Assembly: GCA_025174535.1 (NCBI GenBank)
Contig: JALBUN010000034.1
Span: 1,200,001 to 1,264,000 of the forward strand
Length of the DNA: 64,000 nucleotides
Direction: 5' to 3'
Source of the DNA: Cantharellus purpuraceus
Taxonomy: Eukaryota > Basidiomycota > Agaricomycetes > Cantharellales > Hydnaceae
Under the pieces are notes generated by a model that was not told the DNA's origin, made no database searches, and saw nothing but the letters and a program-made list of their open reading frames with translations. The stretch's first letter is position 1; every line of letters starts with the position of its first letter. Shown here one piece after another: positions 3,148 to 53,441 of this stretch. A program made the translations under genes and the position numbers.

Positions 3148-3265
3148 CGCCGCAACTCCCTCTCCACCTCAGTCTCTAATTCTAGCCATCGATCTTCACT
3201 CGTGTTTCATCGCCATCGATCATTATCATCCTTCTATTCACACCAATCCTTTCATCATCATTCAC

Positions 3266-4037: not shown

Positions 4038-4047
4038 TATATAAAAG
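4038..4047 (+). promoter_or_regulatory. GypC genomic promoter TATA box
   Basis: TATATAAAAG lies about 430 bp before the LTR end. This would place transcription start near 4070 and give a U5/R region of about 400 nt. It is conserved in every copy. Confidence 0.7.
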
Positions 4048-10667: not shown

Positions 10668-10684
10668 GGACAGTCAAATTTTAA

Positions 10685-10696
10685 GAGAAGGGTGGA
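10685..10696 (+). other. GypC polypurine tract
   Basis: AGAGAAGGGTGGA-type purine-rich sequence abuts the 3' LTR, where plus-strand DNA synthesis would be primed. Confidence 0.7.
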
Positions 10697-12111
10697 TGAC
10701 GAGCCAGGACGCATCGAGGACGCATATCGAACCACTCTGACAGTCCAACTCCGCCAGCGTCTTTTCGTATCAACTTTTAAATAGCGCCGCAACTCCCTCT
10801 CCACCTCAGTCTCTAATTCTAGCCATCGATCTTCACTCGTGTTTCATCGCCATCGATCATTATCATCCTTCTATTCACACCAATCCTTTCATCATCATTC
10901 ACATGGCTTCCCATTCTATTCCCCTCTCCAACATCACTTCTAATAATACGTCACACTGGTCTCTGGACACAGAGGACTATCAAAAATACGCCGAGCTCCA
11001 CGGGCATGTTAAGCCACCTCCACGTGTCAAAATACTTCCAAAACTCTTTCAACGTCCAAGATCCCCACCATGTCTCTCTTATGCCATTGGCGATCCCATA
11101 TTCTTTCACAATTCCGTTGAACCATATACATTCCTCGACATTTCACCTCTATATCGTAACACGGATAGAAGAGTCGAACGTGAGGTAGAATTTCAGTCGC
11201 CATTGCCGACCTATCCTCCCACTTCAATCCGACTCAGGTTACATCGTGTCAGGCAAAGGGACCAAATACTCTTGGAGCGGGATACCATATGGAGACGGAT
11301 CACTAAGACAATAAGGAGTATTTGTTGTGGATGCTGACTGAAGTCCTCATGTGACTCAGGGTCAATTAACCTTCGGAGCCGTAGGGAAGATAGTATTGGT
11401 GGACGTTTCTATTGTTCTTTTATATGACTCACCCCTGTTTCATCTTTTAATTCATTCATACACGACTTACTCATCCTTGTTCTATTTTTGGTTCTTTTAT
11501 TACTCATCACCCCCTATTCTTACAAAGATTACCCCTATCTGTCGTTTCATTTCTCCATGATTTCCCCTTTAGTAGTTCAACTTCACACGCTTCGTCAGCT
11601 GGCTTGATCAGCATTTCTTGCATCATATCGCATCAGTTGCTCCTCATATTGTGTCGTAGTGCCCTGGGGATTTGTATATAAAAAGGCGCTAGTTTTCGCC
11701 TTTGGAATGAATCAACAAGTTTTCAGCCAACGCTCTAAAGTCAAAGTCCACGCTCTAAGTCTACGCTCTACGCTCTACATCACAATCCATCATCTCTACA
11801 CTGAGGTAAAACACCTTGGTTCAACGATCAGATTTCCCTCCGCCACCGAGAGGTTGATTCTCCTGAAACCAGCTTTCGCGTACCTCCCAACCGGGCTCCG
11901 CATTGTCATCCAGTCACAGAGCACGATCAGCCATCGGGACCGACCTTTTGCTCCCATCCTCATCCAACCACAGAGCACTATCCCACTTCCCTGTTACGTA
12001 CCCCTCGCCCTGATTGATCTTTGGAGTGCTGAACAACTGCGTTACACACCGTCTGTTTGCTAGGACCGTTGCGCGCAGGCTTATAGGATCTATTCCTTAA
12101 GCGAACCGACA
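10697..12111 (+). repeat. GypC 3' LTR
   Basis: This 1415 bp LTR has the same length as the 5' LTR and is almost identical to it. It is followed by the GCGG target duplication and the rest of the interrupted GypA LTR (12112-12201). Confidence 0.93.
10903..11337 (+). CDS. LTR-encoded 144-residue protein (3' LTR copy)
   Basis: This copy encodes the same protein as the ORF at 3266-3700. If the element RNA starts near the second TATA of the 5' LTR, this copy is the one carried near the 3' end of the genomic RNA. It could also be expressed as a separate short transcript from the TATA-like box at about 10775. Confidence 0.55.
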   Translation: MASHSIPLSNITSNNTSHWSLDTEDYQKYAELHGHVKPPPRVKILPKLFQRPRSPPCLSYAIGDPIFFHNSVEPYTFLDISPLYRNTDRRVEREVEFQSPLPTYPPTSIRLRLHRVRQRDQILLERDTIWRRITKTIRSICCGC

Positions 12112-12201
12112 GCGGTTTCCAAATGGAGTATAGATTTCATGTGCGTGGGGATCTGAGTGGATCGGATGGGGATCTGGGTGTTAATGAATATAATCATAAC
12201 A
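12112..12201 (-). repeat. GypA copy A2: rest of the 3' LTR
   Basis: This is the continuation of the LTR cut by GypC. It ends at CATAACA, the complement of the LTR start TGTTATG. The following sequence, to about 12240, is the 3' end of the GypA internal region, also seen at 26105 and, inverted, just before 52562. Confidence 0.8.
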
Positions 12202-12302: not shown

Positions 12303-12312
12303 ATATAAAAGG
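12303..12312 (+). promoter_or_regulatory. TATA box of the GypA antisense gene (copy A2)
   Basis: ATATAAAAGG lies about 30 bp before the antisense gene start codon. The same box is at 26206-26215 (plus) and 52451-52460 (minus) in the other two copies that retain this region. Confidence 0.65.
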
Positions 12313-12481
12313 AGGGGCATGATTGAGGTCTTATCCTCAATGATGTCAAACCCTTTGGCAAGCATGAGTGTGGCTGAGCTTGAGCAGTTGCTATTGGCCC
12401 GATGGAAGGAAGAGGAAGAGGAGCGGAGATGGAAGGAGGAGGAGGAAGCAGAATGGAGATGGAAGGAGGAGGAGGAGGCGG

Positions 12482-13896
12482 TGACAAGCCAGGACGCATT
12501 GAGGACGTATATTGAACCACTCTGACAGTCCAACTCCGCCAGCGTCTTTTCGTATCAACTTTTAAATAGCGCCGCAACTCCCTATCCACCTCAGTCTCTA
12601 ATTTGAGCCATCGATCGTCACTCGTGTTTCATCGCCATCGATCATTATCAGCCTTCTATTCACACCAATCCTTTCATCATCATTCACATGGCTTCCCATT
12701 CTATTCCCCTCTCCAACATCACTTCTAATAATACGTCACACTGGTCTCTGGACACAGAGGACTATCAAAAATACGCTGAGCTCCACGGGCATGTTAAGCC
12801 ACCTCCACGTGTCAAAATACTTCCAAAACTCTTTCAACGTCCAAGATCCCCACCATGTCTCTCTTATGCCATTGGCGATCCCATATTCTTTCACAATTCC
12901 ATTGAACCATATACATTCCTCGACATTTCACCTCTATATCATAACATGGATAGAAGAGTCAAACATGAGGTAGAATTTCAGTCGCCATTGCCAACCTATC
13001 CTCCCACTTCAATCCGACTCAGGTTACATCGTGTCAGGCAAAGGGACCGAATACTCTTGGAATGGGATACCATATGGAGACGGATCACTAAGACAATAAG
13101 GAGTATTTGTTGTGGATGCTGACTGAAGTCCTCATGTGACTCAGGGTCAATTAACCTTCGGAGCCGTAGGGAAGATGGTATTGGTGGACATTTCTATTGT
13201 TCTTTTATATGACTCACCCCTGTTTCATCTTTTAATTCATTCATACACGACTTACTCATCCTTGTTCTATTTTTGGTTCTTTTATTACTCATCACCCCCT
13301 ATTCTTACAAAGATTACCCCTATCTGTCGTTTCATTTCTTCATGATTTCCCCCTTTAGTAGTTCAACTTCACACGCTTCGTCAGCTGGCTTGATCAGCAT
13401 TTCTTGCATCATATTGCATCATTTGCTCCTCATATTGTGTTGTTGTGCCCTGGGGATTTGTATATAAAAGGGCGCTAGTTTTGCCTTTGGAATCAATCAA
13501 CAAGTTTTCAGCCAACGCTCTAAAGTCAAAGTCCATGCTCTAAGTCTATGCTTTACGCTCTACATCACAATCCATCATCTCTACACTGAGGTAAAACACC
13601 TTGGTTCAACGATCAGATTTCCCTCCGCCACCGAGAGGTTGATTCTCTTGAAACCAGCTTTCGCGTACCTCCCAACCGGGCTCCGCATTGTCATCCAGTC
13701 ACAGAGCACGATCAGCCATTGGGACCGACCTTTAGCTCCCATCCCAATCCAACCACAGAGCACTATCCCACTTCCCTGTTACTTACCCCTCGCCCTGATT
13801 GATCTTTGGAGTGCTGAACAACTGCGTTACACACCGTCTGTTTGCTAGGACCGTTGCGCGCAGGCTTATAGGATCTATTCCTTAAGCGAACCGACA
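12482..13896 (+). mobile_element. Solo GypC LTR
   Basis: This 1415 bp LTR is flanked by GCGG on both sides (12478-12481 and 13897-13900) and inserted into the antisense gene. It is more diverged from the GypC LTRs than they are from each other, mostly by C-to-T or G-to-A changes. The LTR-encoded ORF is still open at 12688-13122. Confidence 0.92.
12688..13122 (+). CDS. LTR-encoded 144-residue protein (solo LTR copy)
   Basis: The ORF is full length, with about seven amino-acid changes from the GypC copy (for example V to I, R to H, T to M, R to W). Nearly all of these are CpG-type transitions, as expected for a relict copy drifting after insertion. Confidence 0.4.
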   Translation: MASHSIPLSNITSNNTSHWSLDTEDYQKYAELHGHVKPPPRVKILPKLFQRPRSPPCLSYAIGDPIFFHNSIEPYTFLDISPLYHNMDRRVKHEVEFQSPLPTYPPTSIRLRLHRVRQRDRILLEWDTIWRRITKTIRSICCGC

Positions 13897-14153
13897 GCGG
13901 AAGGAGGAGGAGGAGGCGGAAGGAGGAGGAGGAGGTGGAAGGAGGCCAGCTTATCCGGCTGGTTAACCTGCAGTCGGAGCACCTCCAGCAGACAGAGGGG
14001 TTACTAGTGGACTTGGTGAAGACAATGAAACGGAAGGAGGTTCTGGACATGGGGGATGAGAAAGATTGGGTGTCGGATGTAGAGAGTGATGATGAGTTGG
14101 AGATGGAGCCTGAGGTAGACAAGGGGAAGGGGAAATGGAAATGCAATGTATAA

Positions 14154-23713: not shown

Positions 23714-24607
23714 AAAGGAGGAAGAAGAAGAGGGATGGAGATGGAAGGAGGAAGAGGCAGAGGCAGAGCAAGCTTGCAAGGTCAAGGAGCTGGAGGCTGC
23801 AATGGAGGCCACAAGGTTGAAGGAAGTGGAGGAGCAGGTGCGCAAACTAGAGGCCACCATGGACATAGAGGAGGTGACCAGGCAGAGGTGACTAGTCACC
23901 CAGGGAGTCCAAGTGTGCCAATGCAGATGCAGACCCCTGAGGTCACCATCATTTCAATTACATGGATGGAGCCATCCTGTCTGACACCTGCTCCACTGGC
24001 ACACTCACCAGTGCATTTGCAGCCATGGCCATTGTTCACAGTGGATGCAGCTGAAGAGGATGATGCAGTGGAGGTGGAGAAGGAAGAGATGGAGGCAGAT
24101 CCAGATCTGGATGCAGATCAGGATATGGATGCAGAGCCAGAGGTGGACACAGAGCCCAACCCACTCTCAAACCACTATGAAGAAATGCCCTGGGTGGAGG
24201 CAGTTGAAGACTGTAGACATGGGGAGTTATATGCCACTATGATGAAGAAGAACCTCATGGTTGTGGTCTTCTCATCAAAGGCATATCCAAGTGAGGCTAC
24301 AGCAAAGCACAAAGAGGAGTGGGGAGTGATATGGTGTAAGGTGGAAGACCAGTTAATAGTGACTTGTAAAAAGGAGTCACATGTTGCCAGGTCAGTGGTC
24401 AAGCTTCATAAGCACAAGATGGAGACAGCTGTGGCAGAGCAACAGGACAAGGAGGGGGAGAGGGAGAATATGGAGGCTGCATCGAAAAGGAGTGGACCAC
24501 CCAAGACTCCAGCTCTGGCAGAGCCATTTGGTGGGCCTGGCATCATATGGAACTTGTGTCACAATGCAGGTGTTCAGTGTATATGGCCCACTGGCCCAAC
24601 CTGGTGA
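23714..24607 (+). pseudogene. GypA antisense gene, second copy (truncated)
   Basis: The coiled-coil part (KEEEEEGWRWKEEE, KVKELEAAMEATRLKEVEEQ) is out of frame with the rest. The second half is open: an acidic stretch of EADPD-type repeats, the NHYEEMPWVEAVE block, the AEQQDKEGERE helix, and the first cysteine triplet C-x2-C-x6-C (CHNAGVQC). It stops shortly after CIWPTGPTW. The second cysteine triplet is absent, and flanking sequence plus a GypA LTR follow. It is homologous block by block to the gene at 50672-52420. Confidence 0.78.
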
Positions 24608-26104: not shown

Positions 26105-26245
26105 GTATCTCCCCATTTAAGGCCAAGCCCCTGAGGCCTCATGTCCATGGATTGAATAGGTGAGATGGTTGGGCACAGTTGGAGTTATACTGGGGGTCTG
26201 GAGACATATAAAAGGAGGGGCATGTTTGAGGTCTTATCCTCAACA

Positions 26246-27343
26246 ATGTCAAACCCTTTAGCAAACATGAGCGTGCTGAGCTTGAGCAGTTGCTCTTGGC
26301 CCGACAGAAGGAAGAAGAAGAGGAGCGGAGACGGAAGGAGGAGGAGGAGGTGGAACAGAGACGGAAGGAGGAGGAGGAGGTGGAATGGAGATGGAAGGAG
26401 GAGGAGGAGGAGTGGAGATGGAAGGAGGAGGAACAGGAACAGAGATGGAAGGAGGAGGCAGAGGCGGAACGGAGACAGAAGGAGGAGGCAGAGGTGGAAC
26501 AGAGATGGAAGGAGGAGGCGGAGGTGGAATGGAGACAGAAGGAGGAAGAAGTGAAGGCTGAGCGAGCACGTGGGGTCAAGGAGCTTGTGGCTGCAATGGA
26601 GGCCATGAGGCTGAAGGAAGTGGAAGAGCAGGTGCATGAGCTAGAAGCTGCCATGGAGGTAGAGGAGGAGGTGACCGGGGCAGGGGCAACTAGTCACCCA
26701 GGGAGTCCAAGTGTGCCAATACAGGCAGGAACCCCTGAGGTCACCATTGTCTTGATCACATGGACGGAGTTGACCCATCCAACAACTGTCCCTCTGGTAG
26801 GCTCGCCGTTGTGTCTGCAACCATGGCCGTTATTTGCGGTGGGTGTGGCTGAAGAAGATGGATGACGCAGCAGAGGTGGAGAGGGCAGAGGTGGAGAGGG
26901 CAGAGGTGGAGGCGGATCCTGATGCCAATATGGAGCTCAACACAAATGCAGAGCCTGAGGTGGGTGTGGATGTCGGGATGGATATGGAGCCAGATCTGAC
27001 CTCAAATTGCTATGAGGAGATGGCTTGGGTAGTCACGGTCAAAGCTTGCAAAAGGGCGGAGCTCTATGCTGCTACCACCAAGAAGAACCTCAAGGTTGCG
27101 GTTTTTTCATTGAAGGCACACCTGAGTGCTGATATGGAAAAGCAGGAGGCAGATTGGAGGGTCATATGCACAAGATGGAGAAGGTGGCGGCGGAACAGCA
27201 GGACAAGGAGGAGGAGAGGGAGCACTTGGAGGCCACATTGAGAAGGAGTGGACTACCCAAGGCTCTGGCTCTGATGGAGCCATTCAGTGGGCCCGGTGTA
27301 ATTTGCAACTTGTGTCGTGACGCAGGTGTGGAGTGTGTATGGC
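26246..27343 (+). pseudogene. GypA antisense gene, third copy (frameshifted, truncated)
   Basis: A TATA box (26206-26215) precedes the start codon. One G is missing soon after the start (AGCGTGCTGAGC against AGTGTGGCTGAG), so the natural frame breaks. The long coiled-coil repeat (R/W-KEEEE units) is open again from 26290. Two more frame breaks follow near 26850 and 27170. The copy ends inside the cysteine cluster (CNLCRDAGVECVW), where an LTR-D is inserted. All three main segments (coiled coil, acidic repeats, first cysteine triplet) are recognisable. Confidence 0.8.
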
Positions 27344-29236: not shown

Positions 29237-31598
29237 ATGCCACAATCCACCGCCAATTCCAAATGCGCACGAACCGTCAAAGTGCCCACTCCCAGCATCA
29301 ACACCATCCCTGAGGTCATCGAAGAACTGACAGACCACATAGAGGCCATCAATGAAGAGGACGACACCCCTCCTTCCCCAAATCTGGCGCAAGCCATCTC
29401 CCTGCTCGCCAGCAGCATCCGTACACCACAAGTTGCTAAGTCCCAGACCAAGGTCCGGGAACCTGACCCATTCAATGGTTCCGATCTGCGCAAGCTCCAG
29501 CCATTCTTGGTGCAATGCCAGTTGAACTTCCATGACCGCCCCGACGTGTTCACATCTCATCAGGTGAAGGTCACCTTCGCCATGTCCTATCTCAAGGGCA
29601 CCGCACTGGACTACTTTGAGCCAGTGCTCATGGATGACTCTGATGACCCGATATGGTCAGAAGACTACTCTGACTTCATCTCCAAACTTCAGACCAATTT
29701 TGGTCCTTACAACCCCGAGGCTGACACCAAGAATGAACTCAATTGACTTTGGATGAAGGAAAATCACAAAATCACAAAATACATTGTGAGTTTCCAGCAG
29801 CTAGCCCCGAACATCCAATGGGGCGATGCCACACTCCAACACCAATTTTACGTTGGACTCCCATCCCGCATCAAGGACAAGATATCACGCATTGGTAAGC
29901 CAGATACTTTGGTAAACCTTCACAAGCTCACCCAATCCATTGATGCCTGTTATTGGGAATGTCAATCTGAGGTCTCCCACAAAAATTTGGCTAACAACAA
30001 ATCGGACAAATCATTGGACAAGACCCAATGTCCAACAAGGGGTCCGATAAGAGGACCACCGCCAACTCAGGTCAGAAGTCAAACATGGGTAACACTGCCA
30101 CTTCTGGTTCTGGTCAGAATAACTCTGGAACCGGCAATAGCTCCGGAGCTCGCAAGAGTGCTCCAGACCTCTCCACCAAGCTGGGAAAGGATGGAAAACT
30201 TACCCAGCAGGAATGTCGCATGGACAACAACCTCTGCCTGTTCTGTGGAAAGCCTGGCCATCAAGCCAAGGATTGCAACAAGGCAACCTCGTCCGCAGCA
30301 AAGGCAAAGGGCCATGCCACCAATGCCACAACGGACAAGTCTGACACTAAAGTGACGGACCCAAAAAAATAGTAAGCAGTCCTATAGCCTCCATACAGGC
30401 TGAGGGCTGCATTGGTACTCCCCATACGACAAACAAGGTCCACCTGATGCATCCACTCTTTGCCACTCTGACTCCCTTACCCTCCTCATCTACTCCGACT
30501 CCATTCCCAATACCACTATCCAAGCATTAATTGACTCCAGTTCTACTCACTGTTTCCTTGATTCCTCTTTTTCCAATCTACATAAACTCCATACATACAC
30601 CATAACTCCAATATCACTCCAATTATTTGATGGCACTACTAATGCTGTTATTTCATGAGCTATAGATCTGTCTATCCGTTTTTCTGTTGGAGAAATCCAG
30701 AACCTTACATTCTATGTTACTCTGCTTGACTCCAGCTGTTCTGTGGTTCTCAGACATAATTGGCTTACCCGCTACAATCCATTGATTGACTGGGCATTGG
30801 GCCATATCACATTCCATTCCCCAGTACAGGCTGTGTCATCCCTGACGTCACCAGCAACTTTAGGTGTGAAACTATCTTCTGCCTCTGCTGACTCTGCTCC
30901 GATAGATACTCCATCTACCCCGCCGTTTATATCAATGGTGGATGCTATGGTCTTCACCAGACTAAGACGCTTGTTCAGAAATACAACAAATACGTATATA
31001 CAACCTATTTTCCTCAAATTTTATACAATACACTTCAATTCAAACTTATTTTCATATTTCAACATGATTCTCAAATTTTACACAATATACTAGATTAAAA
31101 CATATTGTGATATTTTGGCATAATTCTCAAAAATAATTGTTTTTTCCCCATTTAGTGGTGGCAACTCTCTTGAGGGAATATCCAAATATCATGGATCCTT
31201 TCTTATACAATACTTGTAACATAATTTGAACTATCTTTAATCCCCACCTGGTATTTGTATATCTAAATACCCTATATAATACCAATTATATTCATATATA
31301 CATTCCTATTATATCCATGTAAATAATTATGTTCATCTCAACCAAATATCTTATCTTTTAAAGTTTATTAAAATATAGAATATATGTTTATATTTATGAA
31401 AATTTCACACATCCGAAATCTTTTAAGATATCCAAATTGTAACTCCCTGGCTTTATGTATCATTGAAATCCTGATGTATATCTCCTATACATCAGAATAT
31501 TGTATACTGACATGATTCCGAACAAGCGTCTAAGCAAACTGGATGGCTCTCACATGTTCCAGGTTCACCTCTCCAATCTGATATTCCTCGCCGCCCAT
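29237..31598 (+). pseudogene. GypA copy A4: gag and protease, truncated
   Basis: Gag starts at 29237 (MPQSTANSK). Its capsid block is open to a TGA at 29744-29746, then open again from 29753. A frame break near 30025 precedes the zinc knuckle (CLFCGKPGHQAKDC). Gag ends at TAG 30370-30372, right after A7 (30363-30369). The protease region follows with a TGA near 30656. A MITE is inserted at 30966-31530. Copy A4 ends at 31598, where a GypC LTR begins. Confidence 0.85.
30966..31530. mobile_element. MITE, copy 1 (565 bp, TSD TAA)
   Basis: This is an AT-rich, non-coding element with terminal inverted repeats GACGCTTGTTC / GAACAAGCGTC. It is flanked by TAA on both sides (30963-30965 and 31531-31533). 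The empty site is visible in other GypA copies. A 3 bp TWA-type target duplication fits the PIF/Harbinger superfamily. Confidence 0.85.
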
Positions 31599-33935: not shown

Positions 33936-33947
33936 GGTTATGGGCCC
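33936..33947 (+). promoter_or_regulatory. CopE primer-binding site (initiator tRNA-Met anticodon arm)
   Basis: GGTTATGGGCCC directly follows the 5' LTR. It is complementary to the anticodon stem-loop of initiator tRNA-Met (GGGCCCAUAACC in plants, closely similar in fungi), not to the tRNA 3' end. This implies priming by a half-tRNA, as in Drosophila copia. Confidence 0.7.
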
Positions 33948-36144
33948 CGCCAGCGAATCAGAATCACATGCCTTCAAATTTCCAAAGCTCAATGGCCAGA
34001 ACTACTCACTCTGGGCCGAGCACATGCAAGCTGCATTGCAATCTCACTACCTTTGGCTCATAGTCAATGGTATGGAGACTTGTCCAGAAATGCCATCTGG
34101 CACAAAGGTGGCTACCGCAGAATGGAAACTTGAACAGAAGGAAAACATGGACTGGTTGCTGCGTGATCAGGCGGCTCAGGGTCTTATGAAGGGCGCCACT
34201 GAGAGCTCTCAATGGCCACACGTTTCAAAGGCCCAAACTTCAAAGCAGATGTGGGACACGTGGCATGACATGTATGTGACCAATCAGCAACGGATAGATG
34301 TCCACTACTACTTCGAGGAACTATATACGCGGAAGTACGTAGAGACGAGCTCCATGGCTGACCACATCGCTACTATGCTCGACCTCGGACAGAAAATCAC
34401 GGCAGCGGGAGAGATGCTCCCTGATATACATGTCGCTCAAGCGCTCATCCTCTCGCTCCCCCACAATCAGTCATGGGACATCATCAAGATTCAGCTATTT
34501 AGCCTGGAATCACCTAAGCTCACTTCTGCCACTGTCAGCAGCACGCTCATTTCAGAATCCAATCGCCGCTCTAGAGAAAAAGCTAGTGAAACAGCACTAT
34601 TAGCTGGCAAGAAGAAGCACACCGGAGCAAAACCAAAGCCAGATGACGAATGTCGCTACTGTCATGAAAAAGGACATTGGGCTAACAGGTGTCCCAAGCG
34701 TGAGGAAGATGAGAAAAAGAAAGGCAGTGGAGGCACGGCTAACCTCACTGTCAACAACCTCCAGGAGCTAGGAGAATGCCAGATTGGACAGGTATTCATG
34801 GCGGGAGGGACTCCAAAGTTGGCCGAGTTAATATTGGACTGCGGCGCGACATCACACATGTTCTGTGATAAAAGTTTCTTTGTCACTTACTCACCATCAG
34901 GTTCACGCAAATCAATCGCAGTTGGGGATGCCCGCAATATCCCGGTAGCTGGTCACGGTTCAGTTCGGTTCAGAAGCATCTTACCCAAAGGTTTTCGCAC
35001 AATCACTTTACTTGGAGCCCTACATATCCCCACACTCGCTGCAAACTTGGTCAGTCTTGGCAAGTTGCAGCGAGAGGGTGCCTCGGTTACAAGCTATGAC
35101 AGCGGACTATCAGTTTCACTGAAGGGAGACGAGCTGCTTCGTGGATCACTCACCGGTGACAGTGGTACATTGTACCACATCAACTGTCTTGAGATGCAAA
35201 GACACTCCACATACGTCGCAATGAGTGGGAGCCTCCGTCTTTGGCACCGGCGCTTAGGTCATCTGCACCTGGATGCAATCCAAGAGATGTCACAGAAGAA
35301 CCTGGTAGATGGACTCACCATATCATCACTCACAGAATATGACCCTGTGTGTGAAGGATGCGCACTTGGCAAATCACACCAATTACCATTCCCTAAGGCC
35401 AGTAACGCGCGATATAAAAAAATGGACTTACTCGTAGTTGACCTCACTGGTCCGATGTCAGTTGAGACCTGGAGTGGAATGAGATACGCATTTGTTGCTG
35501 TTGAGGTCTCAAGCCGGCTCCCAATAGGGCGGATCCTACAATCGAAGGACGAAGCTGGCACTGCCCTGAAGGAAACGGTGGCTATGTTAGAGCGACAGTC
35601 TGGCAAGTTACTGAAGCGGATTAGATGCGACAATGGTACAGAGTTCACCAAACACCTTGTTGATTCATTTTGCCGCCGCAATGGTGTCGTTTTAGAAACG
35701 ACCGTCCCATATTCACCAGAACAGAATGGGATTGCTGAACGGGCAATTGCCATCTTCTTTGACATGGTCAGATGCATGCTTCACTCAGCGAAAATGGACT
35801 TACGCTATTGGGGGGAAGCCTTCCTATATGCGGTCCACATACGCAGCTGTTCCTATACATCAGCTCTTAAAGGAATGGTTCCACTGCAAGCTTGGTCAGG
35901 AATGAAACCCGACATATCTCACCTCCGAATATTTGGCTCCGTCGCATATGTTAATATCCCGAAGAAACTGCATGGCGGTAAACTGGAAGTTACCTCGGTA
36001 AAGTGCCGCTTGCTGGGCTGGTGGGCTAATGAGACAAAAGGATATCGGCTTGAGGATGTGGAAACCGGGAAACTAATCGCAGCTAGGGACGTACAGTTTA
36101 TTGAGGATCAGATGCCAGGAGATCTTGCTGTGATTGACACCTGA
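33940..36144 (+). CDS. CopE gag-protease-integrase (to first stop)
   Basis: This is 734 codons. The gag-like N-terminus begins with the KLNGQNYSLWAEHM region typical of copia gag. A zinc knuckle, CRYCHEKGHWANRC, lies near residue 233. The aspartic protease has LILDCGATSHMF near residue 300. The integrase follows, with an HHCC finger (WHRRLGHLH, then CEGCALGKSH) and catalytic residues in VVDLTGPMS, CDNGTEFTK and SPEQNGIAERA. The ATG at 33940 lies inside the primer-binding site; a start a little downstream is possible. The TGA at 36142-36144 is in the middle of the expected polyprotein, and the same frame reopens afterwards. It is therefore a decayed polyprotein rather than a natural ORF end. 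Confidence 0.82.
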   Translation: MGPASESESHAFKFPKLNGQNYSLWAEHMQAALQSHYLWLIVNGMETCPEMPSGTKVATAEWKLEQKENMDWLLRDQAAQGLMKGATESSQWPHVSKAQTSKQMWDTWHDMYVTNQQRIDVHYYFEELYTRKYVETSSMADHIATMLDLGQKITAAGEMLPDIHVAQALILSLPHNQSWDIIKIQLFSLESPKLTSATVSSTLISESNRRSREKASETALLAGKKKHTGAKPKPDDECRYCHEKGHWANRCPKREEDEKKKGSGGTANLTVNNLQELGECQIGQVFMAGGTPKLAELILDCGATSHMFCDKSFFVTYSPSGSRKSIAVGDARNIPVAGHGSVRFRSILPKGFRTITLLGALHIPTLAANLVSLGKLQREGASVTSYDSGLSVSLKGDELLRGSLTGDSGTLYHINCLEMQRHSTYVAMSGSLRLWHRRLGHLHLDAIQEMSQKNLVDGLTISSLTEYDPVCEGCALGKSHQLPFPKASNARYKKMDLLVVDLTGPMSVETWSGMRYAFVAVEVSSRLPIGRILQSKDEAGTALKETVAMLERQSGKLLKRIRCDNGTEFTKHLVDSFCRRNGVVLETTVPYSPEQNGIAERAIAIFFDMVRCMLHSAKMDLRYWGEAFLYAVHIRSCSYTSALKGMVPLQAWSGMKPDISHLRIFGSVAYVNIPKKLHGGKLEVTSVKCRLLGWWANETKGYRLEDVETGKLIAARDVQFIEDQMPGDLAVIDT

Positions 36145-43158: not shown

Positions 43159-45102
43159 TGTTATGACTATATTCATTAATGACCAGATCCCCATCCGATC
43201 CACTCAGATCCCCACGCATATGAAATCTATACTCCGTTTGGAAACCACCGCCTCCATCTACCTGTCCAATTGTCACTGCTGCTTCCACCCATCCATCTCC
43301 AGTTCCGATTGATGCATCAGCATCACCATAGGAACCTGGACATCCGTCCCCGTTGGACTCAGACATACTCATGTAAGGCCGTTGGCCTCAGAGACCCATC
43401 ACTGGAGTAATTATTATTAGATTTCAAGATATGTATTTAAGTTGCCTGACTGGGGATGTATGGGAACCACCTTTTCCCTATCAAATTCCATTTATGCAGC
43501 ACCAATGTGCTATTCTTTGCTTTTCCATTCCTAAATATCAGCATATATTTGATGCTTGTACCTGGAATGGACTTATTAAAATATTTTCTATTTTTCCATA
43601 TTTTTCCAGGAATATTCCATGCAGAACTCAGCCCAGAATCATTTATTTCTGCTGTGCTACAGTTGTGGACCCATAGGTGCCCACAAACCTTCTCACAGCC
43701 AGCTATCCACCTTTGGACCAGGGATTCAGCCTGAATTCAAGCTCAGATGTCTCTGATCAATAAATATTCTCTAACTTGACAACCACAGCCTCTCAGGGCA
43801 CTATTTTCCATGCAGATCATCACATGAGATGTGGCTATCCATGGCTGTCCAAACCAGTGCAGAAAACAGGGTGGACACCCTTCTTTTTGCCTGATCAGTG
43901 CCTAGTTCAGGGATCAAATCAGGTGATGGGTGATCAAATCAGGTAATTGCCTTGGAATATTCTACCCCTTTCCATAACATTCTAGCTGTTTCCTTCTATT
44001 ATTAGATAGAACATTCCAGAACCATTATTCAGCTCCTGATCAGTGTCAGTCCAGTGATCAGAACCTGTGATTGGCTTGGAATATTCTACCCCTTTCTTCC
44101 ACCTTCCACAACCTTCCAGTAGTTTCCATCTATTAATAGGTAGAATATTCCAGAAGCATTAGTCAGCCCCTGTAAATACAATATATAAGGAGGCCATTCT
44201 GCCTCTGAAATAGAAACATATCCTACCCATCTTCTGCACACCAGTGTGACTAGAGTGACATACAGTGTCATCCTCTATCTCAGTAACTGTTGATTACCAG
44301 TTCAAGGATCTTTTACAGTTGTGTAACTGTACTTGATTGCACTCGAAGTAGTGATATTCCTGCTTTGGGTGTGAGTGTAGTATCTGCCTCACATGACTAT
44401 GAATCTACAGGGTGAGATTGTCTGTCGATAGTCCTGCCATTAGTGCTCTTGTTTAAGTTACTAGTGTGTACTGCCTTTGCAGAGCATTAGAAGCTTGAAC
44501 TCATGTGAAGCAGTTGCTAGACTACTTCACACATTGCTGTTACCCGCTTCTGAGTGCCACTGGTTGGACGGTCAGATTCATCCACCTACTTCCTTTAGCC
44601 TCTAAGTGCATTCCCCTCTTTTTGGAATATCTGGACCCCTAAGCGTCCGTGAACTCTAGACTCTGGAAGTCTTATTCATTTCTTGCTGCTAAGAAACGTA
44701 TTACTTTTCTGCATATAGTCTGCATTGACCAATACAAAGGATTGTAACCAAAGTACAAACGTTAAATTGTTTCTGGAGTTGTGCTGCAGCAGGGTTTGAC
44801 ATTCTTCTCAGTTGTTCATTCATGGAATTGTGGTGATTTAGAGTTTGCCCTAACACCATAATTTTGCGGGTTCCAAAACAGGGGACTTCATTCCCCAGTT
44901 TGAATATTGAATCACGCCTAGTTCCTAAGTCCGATCCTAACTCTCTAAGTTGTACTCCGTCTCCGAAATCTCAGACACCGGTATTAGTGAGGGCGCAGCA
45001 CATAAGCTGAAGCCAAGTCCATCCCAACCCCCACAACGTGCTCCGACTCCGACCCAACCTCCGACCCAATCTCCGACCCTAAATTGGACCTAGTGCGTAA
45101 CA
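43159..45102 (+). repeat. GypA copy A6: 5' LTR (interrupted by LTR-B)
   Basis: The LTR pieces are 43159-43456 and 44881-45102. The LTR-B insertion point lies in the left arm of the conserved hairpin. Confidence 0.9.
43457..44880 (+). mobile_element. Solo LTR-B, complete
   Basis: This 1424 bp LTR starts TGTATGGGAACC and ends GGTTCCAAAACA, with target duplication GGGGA (43452-43456 and 44881-44885). A TATA-like ATATATAAGG lies near 44183. No internal ORF could be supported. Confidence 0.93.
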
Positions 45103-45116
45103 GTATATTCAAACTG
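44896..45116 (+). promoter_or_regulatory. GypA self-primer: LTR 12-mer (44896-44907) and primer site (45105-45116)
   Basis: CAGTTTGAATAT in the LTR, about 30 bp after a TATA-like TATTTAAG and at the foot of the hairpin, is exactly complementary to ATATTCAAACTG two bases after the LTR end. No tRNA-like primer site beginning TGG is present there. The same pair is seen in A4 (28771-28782 and 29207-29218) and A2. Confidence 0.65.
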
Positions 45117-45134
45117 CCATACTCACTCCTACCA

Positions 45135-46278
45135 ATGCCACGATCCAGCGCCAATTCTGAATACACACAAACCATCGAGGTGCCTGCTCCCAGCATCAAC
45201 ACCATCCCTGAGGTCATCGAAGAACCAACGGACCACATAGAGGCCATCAATGAAGAAGACAACACCCCGCCCTCTCCAAATCTGGTGCAAGCCATCTCCC
45301 TGCTCGCCAGCAGCATCCATAGCCCACAAGCCCCTAAGTCCCGGACCAAGGTCTGAGAACCCGACCCCTTCAATGGCTCCGATCTGCGAAAGCTCCAGCC
45401 GTTCTTGGTGCAATGCTGGTTGAACTTCCATGACTGCCCCAACACATTCACATCTGATCGGGCGAAGGTCACCTTCGCCATGTCCTATCTCAAGGGCACC
45501 ACACTGGACTACTTTGAGCCAGCGCTCATGGACAACTCCAATGACCCGATATGGTCAGAGGACTACTCTGACTTCATCTCCAAACTTCAGACCAATTTTG
45601 GTCCTTACAACCCCAAGGCCGACGCTGAGAATGAACTCAATCAACTTTGGATGAAGGAAAATCACAAAATCACAAAATACATTGTGAGTTTCCAGCAGCT
45701 AGCCCCAAACGTCCAATGGGGCGACACCGCACTCCGACGCCAATTTTACGTTGGACTCCCATCCTGCATCAAGGACGAGATATCACACGTCAGTAAACCA
45801 GATACTTTGGTTAACCTCTGCAAGCTTGCCCAATCCATCAATGCCCGTTATTGGGAATGTCAATCTGAGGTCTCCCGCGAAAATTTGGCCAACAACAAAT
45901 TGGACAAATCATCAGACAAGACACCAAAGTCCAACAAAGGGCTCCAATAAGAGGACCACTACCAACTCAGGCCAGAAGTCAAACACTGGTAACACTGCTG
46001 CTTCCGGTTCCGGTCAAAACAATCCTGGCACCAGCAATAACTCTGGAGCTCGCAAGAGTACTCCGGACCTCTCCACCAAGCTGGGAAAGGATGGAAAACT
46101 TACCCAGCAGGAATGCCAGTGCCGCATGGACAACAACCTCTGTCTGTTCTGCAGAAAGCCTGGCCACCAAGCCAAGGATTGCAACAAGGCAACCTCGTCC
46201 ACAGCAAAGGCAAAAGGCCATGCCGCCAATGCCACAACGGACAAGTCCGACGCAAAAGCGATGGACCCAAAAAAATAG
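45135..46278 (+). pseudogene. GypA copy A6: gag, broken
   Basis: Gag starts at 45135 (MPRSSANSE). A TGA lies at 45354-45356, at the same codon as in A1 and A2. The capsid block is open at 45405-45950, then one extra base near 45940 shifts the frame. The nucleocapsid part carries CLFCRKPGHQAKDC, where the Gly after the second Cys of the usual CGKPGH is Arg. Gag ends at TAG 46276-46278, directly preceded by A7 (46269-46275). Confidence 0.87.
46269..46275 (+). promoter_or_regulatory. GypA -1 frameshift site (A7 before UAG)
   Basis: The gag codons are CCA AAA AAA TAG, so A AAA AAA is an ideal slippery heptamer with a stop codon right behind it. Slipping -1 continues into the protease frame (KKIVSSPLASV). 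An A7 (A8 in A3) is present at this point in all six gag copies. Confidence 0.7.
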
Positions 46279-49200
46279 TAAGCAGTCCTCTAGCCTCTGT
46301 ATGGGCTGAGGGCAGTGTTGGTACTCCCTGTACAACAAATGAGGTCTGCCTGAATGCACCCACTCTTTCCCACTCCAACTCCCTCACCCTCCTTGTCTAC
46401 TCCGACTCCATTCCCGATACTGCTATTCAAGCGTTAATTGACTCCGGTTCTACTCACTGTTTCCTTGATTCTTCTTTTTCTGATTTACATAAACTCCATA
46501 CATACACCATAACTCCGATACCACTCCAATTATTTGATGGCACTACTAATGCTGTTATTTCACAAGCTATAGATCTGTCTATCCGTTTTTCTGTTGGAGA
46601 AATCCAGAACCTTACATTCTATGTTACTCTGCTTGACTCCAGCTGTTCTGTGGTTCTCAAACATAACTGGCTCACCTGCTACAATCCGTTGATTGACTGG
46701 GCACTGGGCCATATCACATTCCATTCCCCAGTACAGACTGTGTCATCCCTGACGTCACCAGCAACTTTAGGTGCAAAATTATCTTCTGCCTCCACTGACT
46801 CCGCTCCGATAGATACTCCGTCTGCCCCACCGTTTATATCACTGGTAGACGCTATGGTCTTCGCCAGACTAAGCACACTGGATGGCTCCCACACATTCCA
46901 GGTCCACCTCTCCAATCTGATATTCCTCGCTGCTCGTTCCACCCGATCAACTCCACCGGATCTATCTATGGTTCCTAAGGAGTATCATGAGTTCACCGAT
47001 GTGTTCAGCAAGCCTAAGACACTTGTTCAGAAATACAACAAATACGTATATACAACCTATTTTCCTCAAATTTTATACAATACACTTCAATTCAAACTTA
47101 TTTTCATATTTCAACATGATTCTCAAATTTTACACAATATACTAGATTAAAACATATTGTGATATTTTGGCATAATTCTCAAAAATAACTGTTTTTTCCC
47201 CATTTAGTGGTGGCAACTCTCTTGAGGGAACATCCAAATATCATTGATTCTTTCTTATACAATACTTGTAACATAATTTGAACTATCTTTAATCCCCACC
47301 TGGTATTTGTATATCTAAATACCCTATATAATACCAATTATATTAATACAGACATTCCTATTATATCCATGTAAATGATTATGTTCATCTCAACCAAATA
47401 TCTCATCTTTTAAAGTTTATTAAAATATAGAATATATGTTTATATTTATGAAAATTTCACACATCCGAAATCTTTTAAGATATCCAAATTGTAACTCCCT
47501 GGCTTTATGTATCATTGAAATTCTGATGTATATCTCCTATACATCAGAATATTGTATACTGACATGATTCCGAACAAGCGTCTAAAGCCGACTCCCTAGC
47601 GGAACTCTGACCATACAATCTCAAGATCGAACTAAATGACAACTCCACCCCTCCGCTTGGCCCTATCTGCTCGCTATCCCAAAAAGAGCTACTGGCTCTC
47701 CAAACATTCATAGACGAGAACTTGGCTACAGGCTTCATCCGCCCACCCCTATCTCCTCATGGAGCTCCGGTCCTATTTGTCTGCAAAAAGGATGGATCAC
47801 TCTGTCTATGCGTCGACTTCCGTGGACTCAACAAGATCACCAAGAAAGACTGATACCCGATACCCTGCATCACAGACCTACTCAAGAGTCCTCGAAAGGC
47901 TAAAATCTATTCCAAAATAGATCTCCAACATGCCTACCATCTAGTCCGCATCCAAGAAGGCGACGAATGGAAAATGACCTTCCGCACACAATATGGATCT
48001 TTCGAGTGGTGCGTCATGCCCTTTGGACTAACCAATGCTCCGGCCACCTTCCAGAGGTTCATGAATGATACCTTCGCCAACCTCCTTGATGTGACTGTCC
48101 TTGTTTACTTAGATGACATTTTGGTATATTTGGACAACGAAGAACAACATCAGACACATGTCCGAGAGGTACTCCAATGTCTCCAAAAACATGGCCTCTT
48201 CGCCCACGCTGACAAATGTGAATTCCACTCCGACTCAGTCGAATACCTAGGCTATATCCTCTCCCCAGCAGGACTGACAATGTCCAATGACAAAATCAAA
48301 GCTATACAGGAATGGCCAGAACCCTGGAAAGTCAAGGATGTACAGTCCTTCCTAGGGTTCACCAACTTCTACCACCGCTTCATTCACAGCTACTCCGATA
48401 TCACTGTTCCGCTCACCCGACTCACCAGGAAGGGTATCCAATGGAATTTCACTGACAAATGTAGACAGAGCTTTGAGACCTTGAAAAAGGCCTTTACTTC
48501 CACTCCGATACTGACTCATTGGGTTCCAGACGTTCCTATCCTATTAGAGACCAACGCCTCCGACTATGCACTTGCTGCAATCCTGTCCATCATCTCTCCG
48601 GACGACGGACAAGTCCACCCGATCGCTTTTCACTCGTGTACATTTATGCCCCCCAAACTGAACTATGACGTCCATGACAAAGAGCTCCTTGCCATATATG
48701 AAGCCTTCCAGATATGGAGACACTACCTTGAAGGCCCCTCCAATCCGGTGGACATCATAACTGACCACAAGAACTTGGAATACTTCTCCACAACGAAACT
48801 ACTCACCCGGAGACAAGTCCGATGGTCTGAATACCTATCTCAGTTCAATCTCATCATCCGTTTCCACCCAGGTCGACTCGGAGCAAAGCCCGACGCTTTA
48901 ACTAGACGATGGGACATCTACCCTAAAGAGGGGAATAGCGACTATGCCACTGTAAACCCACACAACTTTCATCCTGTGTTTACTAACAAGCAGCTGGCAT
49001 CATCCCTACGAGCATCCACCCTCATGACTCCCACCCTCTGAGCTGTCACCATTATGGACATCAACCAACTCTGCTCCAACATCTGCTCATCACTCCAATC
49101 CGATCCTATTGCAGTTAAACACTTGGACAACCCTTCCGATCCAAAATGGTTACTTGACCCCAAAGGACACCTCCAACACAACAACCAGATATACGTCCCC

Positions 49201-50538
49201 GACGCCAACGGCCTCCAACTCTGAGTTTTGCAGTATTATCATGATCACCCAATCTCTGGCCATTTTGGGCAAAATTGCACACAAGGATTAATCCGATGAG
49301 ACTACGTATGGCCAACAATGTGAGAATACATTCAACACTACTGTAACTCCTGCACCATGTGTATGCACTCAAAATCACAAAGGCACAAACCCTACAGAAT
49401 GCTTAAGCAACTTCCGGTCCCGGAGCAACCATGGAACTCCATCTCCATGGATTTCATAGAGAAGCTCCCCCCATCGCTCAGATATGACACCATACTCGTG
49501 ATTGTCGACAGGTTCACCAAACAGTCACTATTCATTCCGACGCATGACACCATCACCTCCGCCTCACTAGCTAAATTGTTCATTCTCCACATATTCTCTA
49601 AACACGGAGTCCCATCACATGTCACATCCGATCGAGGCTCAGAGTTCATGTCCTCCTTCTTCCGCACATTAGGAAAGGCTCTTGACATGAAGCTTCATTT
49701 CACCTCTGGATACCACCCTGAAGGAGACAGAGAAATGGAATGAATGAATCAGTCCCTGGAACAATACCTCCAAATCTATTGTAACTATCAACAAGACAAC
49801 TGGGCTGATCTACTTCCAATCACAGAGTTTGCCTACAACAACGCTCCGAACGTGACTACTGGCATCTCTCCGTTTTTTGCTAATAAAGGCTATCACCCGA
49901 ACATCTCCATCCACCCTGAGAAAGAACTTGCCTCAACCAAAGCCCGCCAATTCGTAACCGACCTCGATCAACTACACCAACATCTCTGAGAAACCATCTC
50001 CGATGCCCAGAAACAATATCAAGTCTCCGCAGACCGACACCGCATTCTGGCTCCAGACCTGCAAATCGGAGACAAAGTATTTGTTAAGGCCAAACACTTC
50101 TGGACCACCCATCCATCGAAGAAACTCTCTGAGAAATACTTAGGTCCTTATGAGGTCATTGCTCATGCAGGCAGCAGGTCCTTCACCCTTCACCTCCCGG
50201 ACCACTTCCAAGCAGTTCATCCAGTTTTCCATATATCAATGCTTGAACCTGCTACTATGAACAAGATCTCCGGTCACATGCAACCCCCACCTCCCCTGAT
50301 CATCATCAAAGGAGACAATGAATATGAGATCTCTGAGATCCTGGACTCGAAGATCGACCATTGATACAAGTGCAAGCTCCAGTACTTAGTCAAATGGACT
50401 GGATACAAAGGCACCAATGAAGAGTCCTCATGGATCTCCGTGTCCAAACTTGATCATGCATCCGAATCCGTCTCTGACTTTCACTCCACTTATCCAGACA
50501 AACCTGGCCCCCTTATGAATCTTAAGTTCGATTACTAA
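46276..50538 (+). pseudogene. GypA copy A6: pol (protease, RT, RNase H, integrase, chromodomain), broken
   Basis: The protease is at ALIDSGSTHCFLDSSF (near 46440), with the active-site DSG intact. A MITE interrupts the start of RT (47018-47582). RT-RNase H is then open at 47974-49041, with LVYLDDILVYLDN (YLDD intact) and LLETNASDYALAA (the RNase H Asp changed to Asn). The integrase is at 49100-50000, with the zinc finger H...H...CNSCTMC, SMDFIEKL, TSDRGSEF, and a stop just where the catalytic Glu region lies (49741-49743, followed by MNQSLEQYL). A chromodomain (YLVKWTGYKGTNEESSW) ends near 50538. Several TGA/TAG stops are present. The chromodomain would tether integration to heterochromatin. 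Confidence 0.88.
47018..47582. mobile_element. MITE, copy 2 (565 bp, TSD TAA)
   Basis: This copy has the same length as copy 1 and almost the same sequence, with TAA on both sides (47015-47017 and 47583-47585). It is inserted in the RT region of A6. The left TIR has one G-to-A change (GACACTTGTTC). Confidence 0.88.
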
Positions 50539-50671
50539 TGCTAATTCTATTATTTTGCATCATCATTTTATTACAAGTCAAGGGAAATTACAAGCCTGCC
50601 CAAAAAGTTCCGAAGGAATCACTCTGACTCATTCTTCTCCGCTCCGAAATTTATAATCATTTTCATTTTTA
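50539..50671. other. Spacer between convergent pol and antisense gene
   Basis: This is an AT-rich region, shared with 14154-14302, where the two transcription units of GypA would end tail to tail. Confidence 0.5.
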
Positions 50672-52420
50672 TTATACATCGTGTTTCCTTTTTCCCTTCC
50701 CCTTATCTACCTCAGGCTCCGTCTCCGACGCCATCTCTGACTCATCATCACTCTCTACATCCGACACCCAATCGTTCTCATCCCCCATGTCTGAATCCTT
50801 GTCCAAAGGGGCCATGAACTTCTGCAACCAACGTAACTCAGCTGTCCGACGACCCTCCAGAACCTCCTTCCATTTCATTGTCTTCACCAAGTCCACTAGC
50901 AACCCCTCCATCCACCGGAGGTGCTCCAACTGCAGGTTAACCAGCCAAATAAGCTGGCCCACAGTACTATTGGGCACAGAGATGCGCCCCATACCTGCAC
51001 CGGTCGTTGCCCCTTCCGATCCAACACCGCTACCCCCGGCTGCCACAGCACCTGTCTCTGTCTGCCGCTTTTTGGTCGGACAACCTTCCAATTCTTTCTC
51101 TGCCCCTCCTTGTACCACTAGTCAGGGCTTGATGCTCCAACTCCAGGGATCAAACTTTCCATCGATCCTACACCCTCCTTTCTGACCCCAACAACGATTG
51201 CAGGACCAAAGGCGGCGAGTTGGGCCGGTAGGCCACACGCACTCCACACCCGCATCACGACACAAGTTGCATGTTATGCCGGGCCCGCCAAATGGCTCCG
51301 TTGGAGCCAGAACCTTGGGTGGTCCGCCCCTTCTTGCTGCGGCCTCCAAATGTTCCCTCTCCTCCTCCTTGTCCTGCTGTTCTGCTGCTGCCTTCTCCAT
51401 CTCGTGCTTGCAAAGCTGGATCGCCAATCTAGCAACACGCAGCTCCTTCTTATGGGTCACCAACACGCGACTCTCCGCCTTGCACCATATGACCCTCCGA
51501 TCTGCCTCCCACTTCTCCGTATCAGCACTCGGGTACGCCTTCAATGAAAAGACCGCAACATCGAGATTCTTCTTGGTGGTAGCAGCATAGAGCTCCGCTC
51601 TTTTGCGAGCCTCAACCACAGCTACCCAAGCCATCTCCTCATAATGATTTGAAGTTGGATCCAGCTCCACATCCGTCCCAACATCCACACCTGCCTCAGG
51701 CTCCACATTTGCGTCGAGCTCCATATTGGCATCAGGATCCACCTCCACCTCCGCCCTCTCCACCTCCGCCGCTTCATCTTCCTCAGCCGCACCCAACCCA
51801 AATAATGGCCATACCCGCAGACATAACGGCAAGTCAACCACAGTGACAGTTGTCGGGCGAGTTGTCTCCGTCTGCATAACGGAGATGATGGTGACCTCAG
51901 GGGTCCCTGTCCGTATTGGCACACTCAGACTTCCTGGGTGGCTGGTTCCCCCTGCCCTGGTCACCTCCTCCTCTACCTCCATGGTGGCTTCTAGCTCATG
52001 CGCCTGCTCCTCCACTTCCTTCAGTCTCGCGGCCTCCATCGCGGCCACAAGTTCCTTTACCCTGCGGGCTCTCTCGGCCTTCACTTCCTCCTCTTTCCTT
52101 CTCCGTTCTGTCTTCACCGCCTCTTTCCGCGCCCACTCCTCCTCCTCCTTCTGTCTCCATTCCACCTCCTCCTCCTCCTTGCATCTCCGTTCCGCCTCCT
52201 CCTCCTCCTTCCGTCTCCGTTCCACCTCCTCCTCCTCCTTCCATCTCCATTCTGCCTCCTCCTCCTCCTTCCACCTCCATTCCTCCTCCTCCTCCTCCTT
52301 CCGTCTCCGTTCCACTTCCTCCTCCTCTTTCCATTTCCGCTCCTCCTCCTCTTCCTTCCGTCAGGCCAAGAGCAACTGCTCCAGCTCGGCCACACTCATG
52401 CTTGCCAAAGGGTTTGACAT
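50672..52420 (-). pseudogene. GypA antisense gene: coiled-coil protein with Zn2Cys6-like cluster
   Basis: This gene is opposite in strand to gag-pol and lies between pol and the 3' LTR. Its frame spans 583 codons from MSNPLASMSVAELEQLLLA, broken by two in-frame TGA codons (near 52360 and at 51122-51124). Both look like decayed CGA; the A2 copy has CGA at the first. In order it holds: an N-terminal leucine-rich helix; about 100 residues of KEEEE/RW charged coiled-coil repeats; a Pro/Thr linker; acidic EVDPD-type repeats; a conserved NHYEEMAWVAVVEARKRAE block; a second charged helix; the cysteine cluster C-x2-C-x6-C-x12-C-x2-C-x6-C (51170-51271), which matches fungal Zn2Cys6 spacing; and an acidic then lysine-rich tail. 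Partial homologues lie at 12343, 23714 and 26246. A regulatory or DNA-binding role is inferred only. The nearest resemblance is to cysteine-rich coiled-coil proteins common in mushroom genomes. Confidence 0.75.
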
Positions 52421-52450
52421 TGTTGAGGATAAGACCTCAAACATGCCCCT

Positions 52451-52460
52451 CCTTTTATAT
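52451..52460 (-). promoter_or_regulatory. TATA box of the antisense gene (copy A6)
   Basis: On the minus strand ATATAAAAGG lies 31 bp from the start ATG. It lies in GypA internal sequence, not in the LTR, and is identical in three copies. Confidence 0.65.
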
Positions 52461-52561
52461 GTCTCCAGACCCCCAGTATAACTCCGACTGCGCCCAACCG
52501 TCTCACCTATTCAATCCGCAGACATGAGGCCTCAGGGGCTCGGCCTTAAATGGAGAGATAC

Positions 52562-53441
52562 TGTTATGACTATATTCATTAACGTCCAGATCCGTCCGAT
52601 CCACTCAGATCCCCGCGCATATGAAATCTATACTCCATTTGGAAACCACCGTCTCCATCTACCTGTCCAATTGTCACCGCCGCTTCCGCCCATCCGTCTC
52701 CGGTTCCAATTGATGCATCAGCATCACCATAGGAACCCAGGCATCCATCCCTGTCGGACTCGGACATACTCATGTAAGGCCGTCGGCCTTGGAGACCCAT
52801 CACTGGAGTAATTATTATTAGATTTCAAAATATGTATTTAAGTTGCCCAACTGGGGACTTCATTCCCCAGTTTGAATATCGAATCATGCCTAGTTCCTAA
52901 GTCTGATGCTAACTCTCTAAGTCATACTCTGTCTCTGAAATCTCAGACACCAGTATTAGTGAGGGTGCAGCACATAAGCTGAAGCCAAGTCCATCCTGAC
53001 CCTGTGAGGGCGACGCTGATGACGAGGCCACAACAACAAGATACTCAATAAGTGAAAGCCGATAAGAAATAATGCCAGCTGGTACAGCGGATATCCTCAG
53101 TCTATACAGCTGTTTCTGATAAATACATGGGACTTACCTGGTACAGCGGATATCCTCAGAGATCAAGTTGAGGGGATCACACTGCACCAAGGCGAGTCTT
53201 TATACTAAATGATGGAGACGGATAGGAGAACCAAGATAGGGGAGGAAAGATAGGGGAAGTGATAGGGGCAATGAAATAGGGGAGATGCACCCTGACAGGC
53301 TGCGCTGATAGGGGTGTCAAGAGAAAATACTAAAAATAGAATATGACTTATTTGAACCCTGACAGACCCCCATGACGTGCTCCGACTCCAACCCGACCTC
53401 CAACCCAATCTCTGACCCCAAATCGGACCTAGTGCGTAACA
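52562..53441 (+). repeat. GypA copy A6: 3' LTR (interrupted by LTR-D)
   Basis: The pieces are 52562-53002 and 53365-53441. The LTR end is followed by the target duplication AGTAT and then host sequence. Confidence 0.92.
53003..53364 (-). mobile_element. Solo LTR-D
   Basis: This 362 bp LTR has the target duplication GACCC on both sides (52998-53002 and 53365-53369). Confidence 0.93.

Follow-up and report, generated by a model that had tools for sequence, protein, structure and literature searches.

An antisense gene under purifying selection in GypA chromoviruses of Cantharellus purpuraceus encodes a six-cysteine protein, a candidate nuclear regulator

Does the long frame that runs opposite gag-pol beside the 3ʹ long terminal repeat (LTR) of a fungal retrotransposon encode a protein, and what would such a protein do? 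The question is raised by a stretch of 64,000 nucleotides from Cantharellus purpuraceus (assembly GCA_025174535.1, contig JALBUN010000034.1, positions 1,200,001 to 1,264,000, forward strand), here called the window, in which a Ty3/gypsy chromovirus, GypA, carries such a frame. We found that the antisense frame is a protein gene under purifying selection and a family trait of GypA, lying beside the majority of the integrase places checked and in several subfamilies. Judging from sequence, we think it somewhat more probable than otherwise that GypA carries a third, accessory gene in antisense, the product of which is a nuclear zinc-binding protein regulating transposition.

The gene is intronless, about 550–750 codons long and sited between pol and the 3ʹ LTR. 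In 27 GypA copies, namely 20 full regions, six gene regions and the window copy, its length ranged from 1653 to 2259 nt. The window copy has 583 codons, running from 52420 to 50672 with premature TGA codons at 52361–52363 and 51122–51124, and its end converges with the pol stop at a distance of about 130 bp (Table 1). An initial annotation of the window had placed four copies of the gene on the strand opposite gag-pol, each adjoining the 3ʹ LTR; all four are indeed antisense to GypA, and the arrangement recurs across the genome. Only the copy at 50672–52420 covers the whole cysteine cluster, and the fragment at 23714–24607 lacks the N-terminus and has Trp in place of the first Cys. In order from the N-terminus, a charged K/E/R helix is followed by an acidic spacer and a helical segment; the cysteine cluster comes next, then basic runs and a second helical segment, and after these the acidic tail and the basic end. 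The basic run PTKKR we take to be a nuclear-localisation-like motif. For the helix before the cluster, AlphaFold gave a block predicted local distance difference test (pLDDT) score of up to 88 within residues 179–244 of the modelled part.

The genome assembly searched comprises 40.15 Mb in 50 contigs, and a DNA search of it gave at least 47 matches to the antisense gene (40 of 744 candidates scored). Twenty regions of 10 kb each, picked by their match to the gene, were fetched, and in all of them the gene ran opposite to gag-pol, flanked by pol sequence on one side and a 3ʹ LTR on the other; two of them (L015 and L017) had a rearranged pol end and one (L023) had lost it. Genome-wide, the gene was counted with a pattern of 23 bases, allowing up to 2 mismatches, and integrase with one of 30 bases, allowing up to 3. 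The counts were 187 + 239 and 230 + 193 places, about 426 against about 423, and the reversed-pattern controls had none. The pairing of the two patterns is independent of choice by gene and used 92 and 88 of the 100 matches listed per pattern. Among the matches listed on contigs C1–C7, an exact gene place lay at most 6 kb downstream on the opposite strand for 57 of the 88 exact integrase places, 39 of them at a fixed distance of 1,449–1,500 bp, compared with 2/88 on the same strand and 5/88 in the upstream control. Six diverged pieces (L031–L034, L041 and L042) were 71%–81% identical in the gene, and in five of them a pol end (80%–87%) adjoined it. A related LTR was present in three (L032–L034); L041 ends before the LTR, no related LTR was seen in L031, and neither an adjoining pol end nor a related LTR was seen in L042. 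As diverged subfamilies carry the gene beside pol or the LTR, it probably predates the split of the GypA subfamilies. In these respects the gene agrees with an aORF-3R: the frame is open and runs opposite gag-pol, its place is between pol and the 3ʹ LTR, most copies have it, and its protein is conserved.

Across the 27 copies, the ATG was always kept and the frame was open to the final stop in five, so that intact copies, which the initial annotation had asked for in related genomes, do occur in this genome. Among 26 stop-making codon changes, 20 were CGA to TGA; because decay is dominated by CpG to TpG changes, the sequences suggest that GypA is cytosine-methylated. No stop-making variant outside CpG sites was common to several copies. 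We then related amino-acid-changing to silent non-CpG variants, relative to expectation. After the repeat, this ratio rose from 0.25 (variants common to at least three copies) through 0.35 (two copies) to 0.53 (singletons), and in the N-terminal and repeat part the corresponding values were 0.16, 0.05 and 0.51. For comparison, the reverse transcriptase positive control (18 copies) gave 0.04 for variants in at least three copies and 0.59 for singletons. A second, more variable pol control (46044–47000) gave a weak signal (0.44 and 0.79) and was less clean, with a different frame down to 0.27 in the two-copy class; the LTR frames, with few variants, showed no consistent frame. Thirteen sequences make 78 pairs, of which 21 were chosen for calculating the ratio of nonsynonymous to synonymous divergence (dN/dS). 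It was 0.16–0.32 in all 11 between-subfamily pairs (0.11–0.31 without CpG-touching codons) and 0.28–0.58 in 10 within-GypA pairs (0.22–0.44 without them). These values lie well below 1, and the sampled copies are not very young, since the LTR pairs detected in 11 of the 20 regions differ by 1.7%–10% outside CpG.

That the antisense frame only mirrors a coding frame on the sense strand, or arose by chance, has a negligible probability. The mirrored sense frame also had a lowered ratio (0.37 after the repeat and 0.35 in the N-terminal part), because its third codon positions coincide with those of the antisense frame, but the antisense ratio was lower in both parts. A sense-strand gene was rejected on its stops: each of the three sense frames had at least four in every one of the 27 copies. 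Alternatively, the antisense transcript itself could be functional, limiting gag-pol through double-stranded RNA or interference, with the frame incidental. The convergence with pol would suit such a role, and RNAs of this kind have been proposed for other elements, as the available text of one review relates (PMC7264820). We regard this as highly improbable: dN/dS well below 1 largely refutes it as the sole explanation, although transcript and protein may act together. That the protein is needed, and not the transcript alone, follows from the selection at codon level, the cysteines kept amid silent changes, the lack of shared stops and the mostly in-frame indels of the repeat. The 30-bp repeat unit is itself a multiple of three, as were 25 of the 30 distinct indels in the repeat part, compared with 5 of 10 outside it.

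All six cysteines of the cluster are retained in 27/27 copies, with TGC/TGT variation at three of them. The spacing reported by the initial annotation, C-x2-C-x6-C-x12-C-x2-C-x6-C, is present and meets the fungal Zn2Cys6 rule (C-x2-C-x6-C-x5-12-C-x2-C-x6-8-C). The 12-residue linker contains WPTGPT and is shortened to x11 in the diverged copy L041. Much of the Arg/His/Cys/Gln/Trp variation near the cluster looks like CpG decay of Arg codons. On the spacing alone, the same annotation had assigned the protein to Zn2Cys6, and it took the gene for a captured host-type regulator; of this the spacing stands. No scanned copy passed the Pfam Zn_clus (PF00172) cut-off of 21 bits: the best match had 18.7 bits (E 0.0019), and among 12 copies scanned singly seven gave sub-threshold matches, all but the best with E values of 0.024 or weaker. 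Within the A2 members, 7 of 16 matched at E ≤ 10 (best E 0.024). In these weak alignments, which show the best stretch per copy, the first cysteine triple aligned to profile positions 17–38 (L016, L020, L021 and L022) and the second to positions 1–14 (L012, L017, L021 and L027). All the stretches shown, from seven distinct copies, were thus in reversed order and none in normal order, and L021 alone had both halves.

A half-by-half control was run against eight canonical Zn2Cys6 domains, whose own halves were told apart in 16/16 leave-one-out cases. The second triple of the GypA protein grouped with canonical first halves in 17/17 sequences, and the first triple with canonical second halves in 7/17. 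Because this pairwise control backs the second triple only, a swap of the two halves is a supported lead and not proof. It is conceivable, though tentative, that a chromovirus has domesticated a zinc cluster with its halves swapped relative to the Gal4 type, and that the antisense gene, driven by its own promoter, encodes a sequence-specific nuclear regulator of the element's own LTRs, in the manner of HBZ. A swapped zinc-cluster topology is not described in the open-licence literature searched, and nothing relevant was found there on retroelements in which an antisense gene is combined with a zinc cluster, or a zinc cluster is permuted.

That the gene is a canonical Zn2Cys6 transcription factor taken from the host, as the initial annotation proposed, we consider rather improbable. 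This would account for the six cysteines at a permitted spacing and for the sub-threshold Zn_clus similarity; the host has Zn_clus genes (19 places), and the first triple was nearer the canonical first half in 10/17 sequences. Searches of the protein database and the PDB, however, gave no relative that would speak for capture; none of the 19 host Zn_clus places coincides with a place of the antisense gene (among the matches listed), the Pfam stretches are reversed, the first loop of the cluster is poor in basic residues, and the fungal-specific transcription-factor domain is not among the Pfam families matched to the antisense protein.

A different possibility is that the protein is a structural partner of a particle or complex, such as the capsid, a ribonucleoprotein or, as a chaperone, the integration complex. 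It would act through its long charged helix, and the cysteines would form a zinc site, RING-like or of another kind, that stabilises the fold or binds protein or RNA and does not read DNA. The long K/E/R helix and other helical segments dominate the protein, every DNA-binding family scored below its threshold, and a weak RING match (zf-C3HC4_3, best E 0.046) appeared in 2 of 16 members. Set against this are the basic nuclear-type runs, the acidic tail and the resemblance of the second triple to the DNA-contacting half of zinc clusters in all 17 sequences, and we judge a structural partner unlikely. A nuclear accessory regulator is the most likely identity of the antisense product, as far as the sequence can tell. 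We prefer it to a structural partner on account of the basic residues in the zinc-cluster-like half, the basic nuclear-type runs, the acidic tail and the precedents of GENE23 and other antisense open reading frames (ORFs).

The shared box that the initial annotation saw ahead of three window copies is ATATAAAAGG, which is found at 12303–12312 and 26206–26215 (both plus strand) in addition to the position before the main copy. As TATAAAAGG, the TATA-like box was found in 26 of the 27 GypA copies, and it was also present in four of the six diverged pieces (L033, L034, L041 and L042), the homology of L042 starting just at the box. The 120 nt upstream of the gene held 13 variants at 102 usable sites, two of them shared; the densities for comparison were 131/309 at third positions and 60/356 at LTR sites. 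At the other end, 16 of 17 copies checked from the 20 regions carried a downstream AATAAA, 86–117 nt beyond the stop. Three CGG triplets lie 66–98 nt upstream of the ATG on the gene strand, upstream of the TATA-like box; we treat them as no more than a lead, since with even base composition a stretch this long would hold about two. A scan for bacterial promoters and terminators, a method unsuited to a fungus, returned nothing. Separately, an upstream ATG is located 24 nt before the main one (window 52420–52460), in frame in the GypA copies shown and out of frame in L033, L034 and L042 through a one-base difference.

Several observations weigh against the interpretation as a regulator with its own promoter. 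The TATA-like box was not at the corresponding place in L031, L032 or the window fragment at 23714, and it was no more conserved than its surroundings. As the interval between gene and LTR is constrained about as the LTR is and the box is not conserved beyond it, a promoter role is inseparable from others, e.g., that of a polypurine tract. Retention of the cysteines is in itself moderate evidence, because 251 of the 428 codons after the repeat are retained to the same degree, and the 10/17 sequences in which the first triple was nearer the canonical first half run contrary to the swap. AlphaFold modelling yielded no confident fold for the cluster (pLDDT 40.7 for the 78-aa cysteine region and 42.9 for the 457-aa part), and both models were too low in confidence for a fold search. 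Not all copies are independent, as L013/L014 and L015/L017 look like duplicates. Among the matches listed on contigs C1–C7, 29 of the 88 exact integrase places had no exact gene place nearby. Finally, the protein database gave no match at E ≤ 0.001, 1 or 10 with the open part, the C-terminal region or the alignment as queries, and the PDB sequence search gave no or only non-significant matches. Since no homologue was found, the term "regulator" rests on composition and motif. Pfam likewise had no family over its cut-off for the antisense protein, NCBIfam nothing but a meaningless VioE stretch, and the 189 pattern stretches from an IMG/VR scan with the alignment included no relative.

The position of the gene has precedents. 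The initial annotation had assumed that Ty3/gypsy elements normally carry nothing or an env-like gene there; this is wrong: according to the available text of PMC7264820 and PMC11963269, a gene at this site on the opposite strand is known in Boty (Botrytis, Sclerotinia), Grande, RIRE2, Retand and PvRetro13. Among the closest known systems is brtn, which Boty Ty3/gypsy elements carry in Botrytis cinerea and Sclerotinia (Zhao et al. 2011, cited in PMC7264820 and PMC8365987). It too is an extra gene of a fungal element, lying in antisense between pol and 3ʹ LTR; the citing passages do not mention six clustered cysteines in its product. Grande, RIRE2, Retand and PvRetro13 share the antisense position, but they are plant elements, Retand is a non-chromovirus, and their domains (TRP28, SMC-like), as far as these sources give them, are unlike the GypA protein. 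In the same excerpts, maize Grande gene23 has its own promoter and GENE23 is a nuclear protein (PMC7264820), and the Retand antisense ORF has a TRP28 domain and is a proposed DNA binder (PMC7264820, PMC11963269). The function of antisense accessory genes of LTR retrotransposons is called not known in the review (PMC7264820, available part). In PMC2864245, the legend of a figure on fungal and related Gypsy elements notes an extra ORF whose function is unknown, and the word "antisense" is absent from the part available. HBZ of human T-cell leukaemia virus type 1 is an antisense bZIP protein and nuclear regulator expressed from the 3ʹ end (available text of PMC10186651, PMC6237760 and PMC11963269); the analogy is one of mode of working, no homology is claimed, and the GypA protein has a cysteine cluster. 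With the Zn2Cys6 domain (PF00172), the GypA cluster shares two C-x2-C-x6-C triples and a weak similarity of each half; it differs in the apparently reversed halves, the sub-cut-off score, the WPTGPT linker and the lack of a fungal transcription-factor domain among the families listed. Thus, the antisense position is already known, and the protein family, the motif and the chromovirus context appear to be new within the open-licence literature searched.

If the antisense product is a nuclear accessory regulator, its mode of action may be sketched as follows. Transcription would start beside the 3ʹ LTR, at a promoter belonging to the gene itself, and proceed toward pol, convergent with it. The protein would enter the nucleus and bind zinc, and it would act on the LTR or promoter DNA of the element itself, or on its chromatin or pre-integration complex. 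By analogy with retroviral antisense and accessory factors, this action might set the level or the site of transposition.

Table 1. Positions of the antisense gene, its motifs and signals, and the GypA parts around it in the window
Feature	Position	Strand	Basis or remark
Antisense gene, ATG 52420–52418 to TAA 50674–50672	50672..52420	−	Window sequence; homologues in 26 more aligned copies
Six-cysteine cluster	51170..51271	−	Sequence; 27-copy alignment; Pfam half matches
30-bp tandem repeat, 7.4 units, coding for the charged K/E/R helix	52136..52356	−	Repeat analysis
Basic run PTKKR	51065..51079	−	Sequence and alignment of copies
Basic C-terminal run KGKGKRK, following an acidic stretch	50684..50704	−	Sequence and alignment of copies
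TATA-like box ATATAAAAGG, first base 40 nt upstream of ATG	52451..52460	−	Sequence, copy alignment
AATAAA about 100 nt past the antisense stop	50567..50572	−	Sequence
Second AATAAA, overlapping the stop codon	50668..50673	−	Sequence
Second antisense-gene copy; gag-pol on minus strand	12343..14153	+	Split by 1,418-bp repeat at 12482–13899
Antisense-gene fragment, diverged subfamily, about 69% DNA identity	23714..24607	+	Stops inside the cysteine cluster
Frame-broken antisense-gene copy	26246..27343	+	Stops inside the cysteine cluster
GypA copy bearing the antisense gene	44878..53002	+	Pfam matches; alignment to 20 genomic regions
pol stop codon, after the chromodomain	50536..50538	+	Sequence
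3ʹ LTR, beginning TGTTATGAC, truncated at 53002	52562..53002	+	Alignment of copies

GypA was classified by Pfam matches over cut-off to Retrotrans_gag, RVP_2, RVT_1, RT_RNaseH, Integrase_H2C2, SH3_Tf2-1 and Chromo, with rve at 28.2 bits, under its cut-off of 32.6. The gag, RVP_2, RVT_1 and RNase H matches came from window frames at 44878..53002, and those to H2C2, SH3, Chromo and rve from a sister copy at 14306–15652. In the copy at 44878..53002, the 5ʹ LTR is truncated and the pol frames are broken. A repeat of about 560 bp is inserted in its gag-pol at about 47018–47583; a 97% copy at 30950–31533 has the same short left flank, and related copies occur in L018, L019 and L027. The GypA copies L014 (G000:C18:824683–826378) and L013 (831911–833602) have the same flank and shared features in opposite orientation, which suggests an inverted segmental duplication. 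Two further elements lie in the window. The one at 3055–12115 is another Ty3/gypsy element, young amid decayed ones: its LTRs of about 1,415 bp are 99.8% identical (3060–4474 and 10697–12111), and it has long frames that stay open from stop to stop over 909 and 1,149 aa; the other, at 33937–36144, is of copia type with an open gag-pol part of 735 aa.

With about 420 places in one 40-Mb genome, several subfamilies, measurable selection on the protein and a specific motif, the GypA antisense family is a high-copy system for this kind of gene. If the swapped zinc cluster is true, one of the very common classes of DNA-binding domain in fungi would gain a further topology, and a parasitic element could use the regulatory language of its host.
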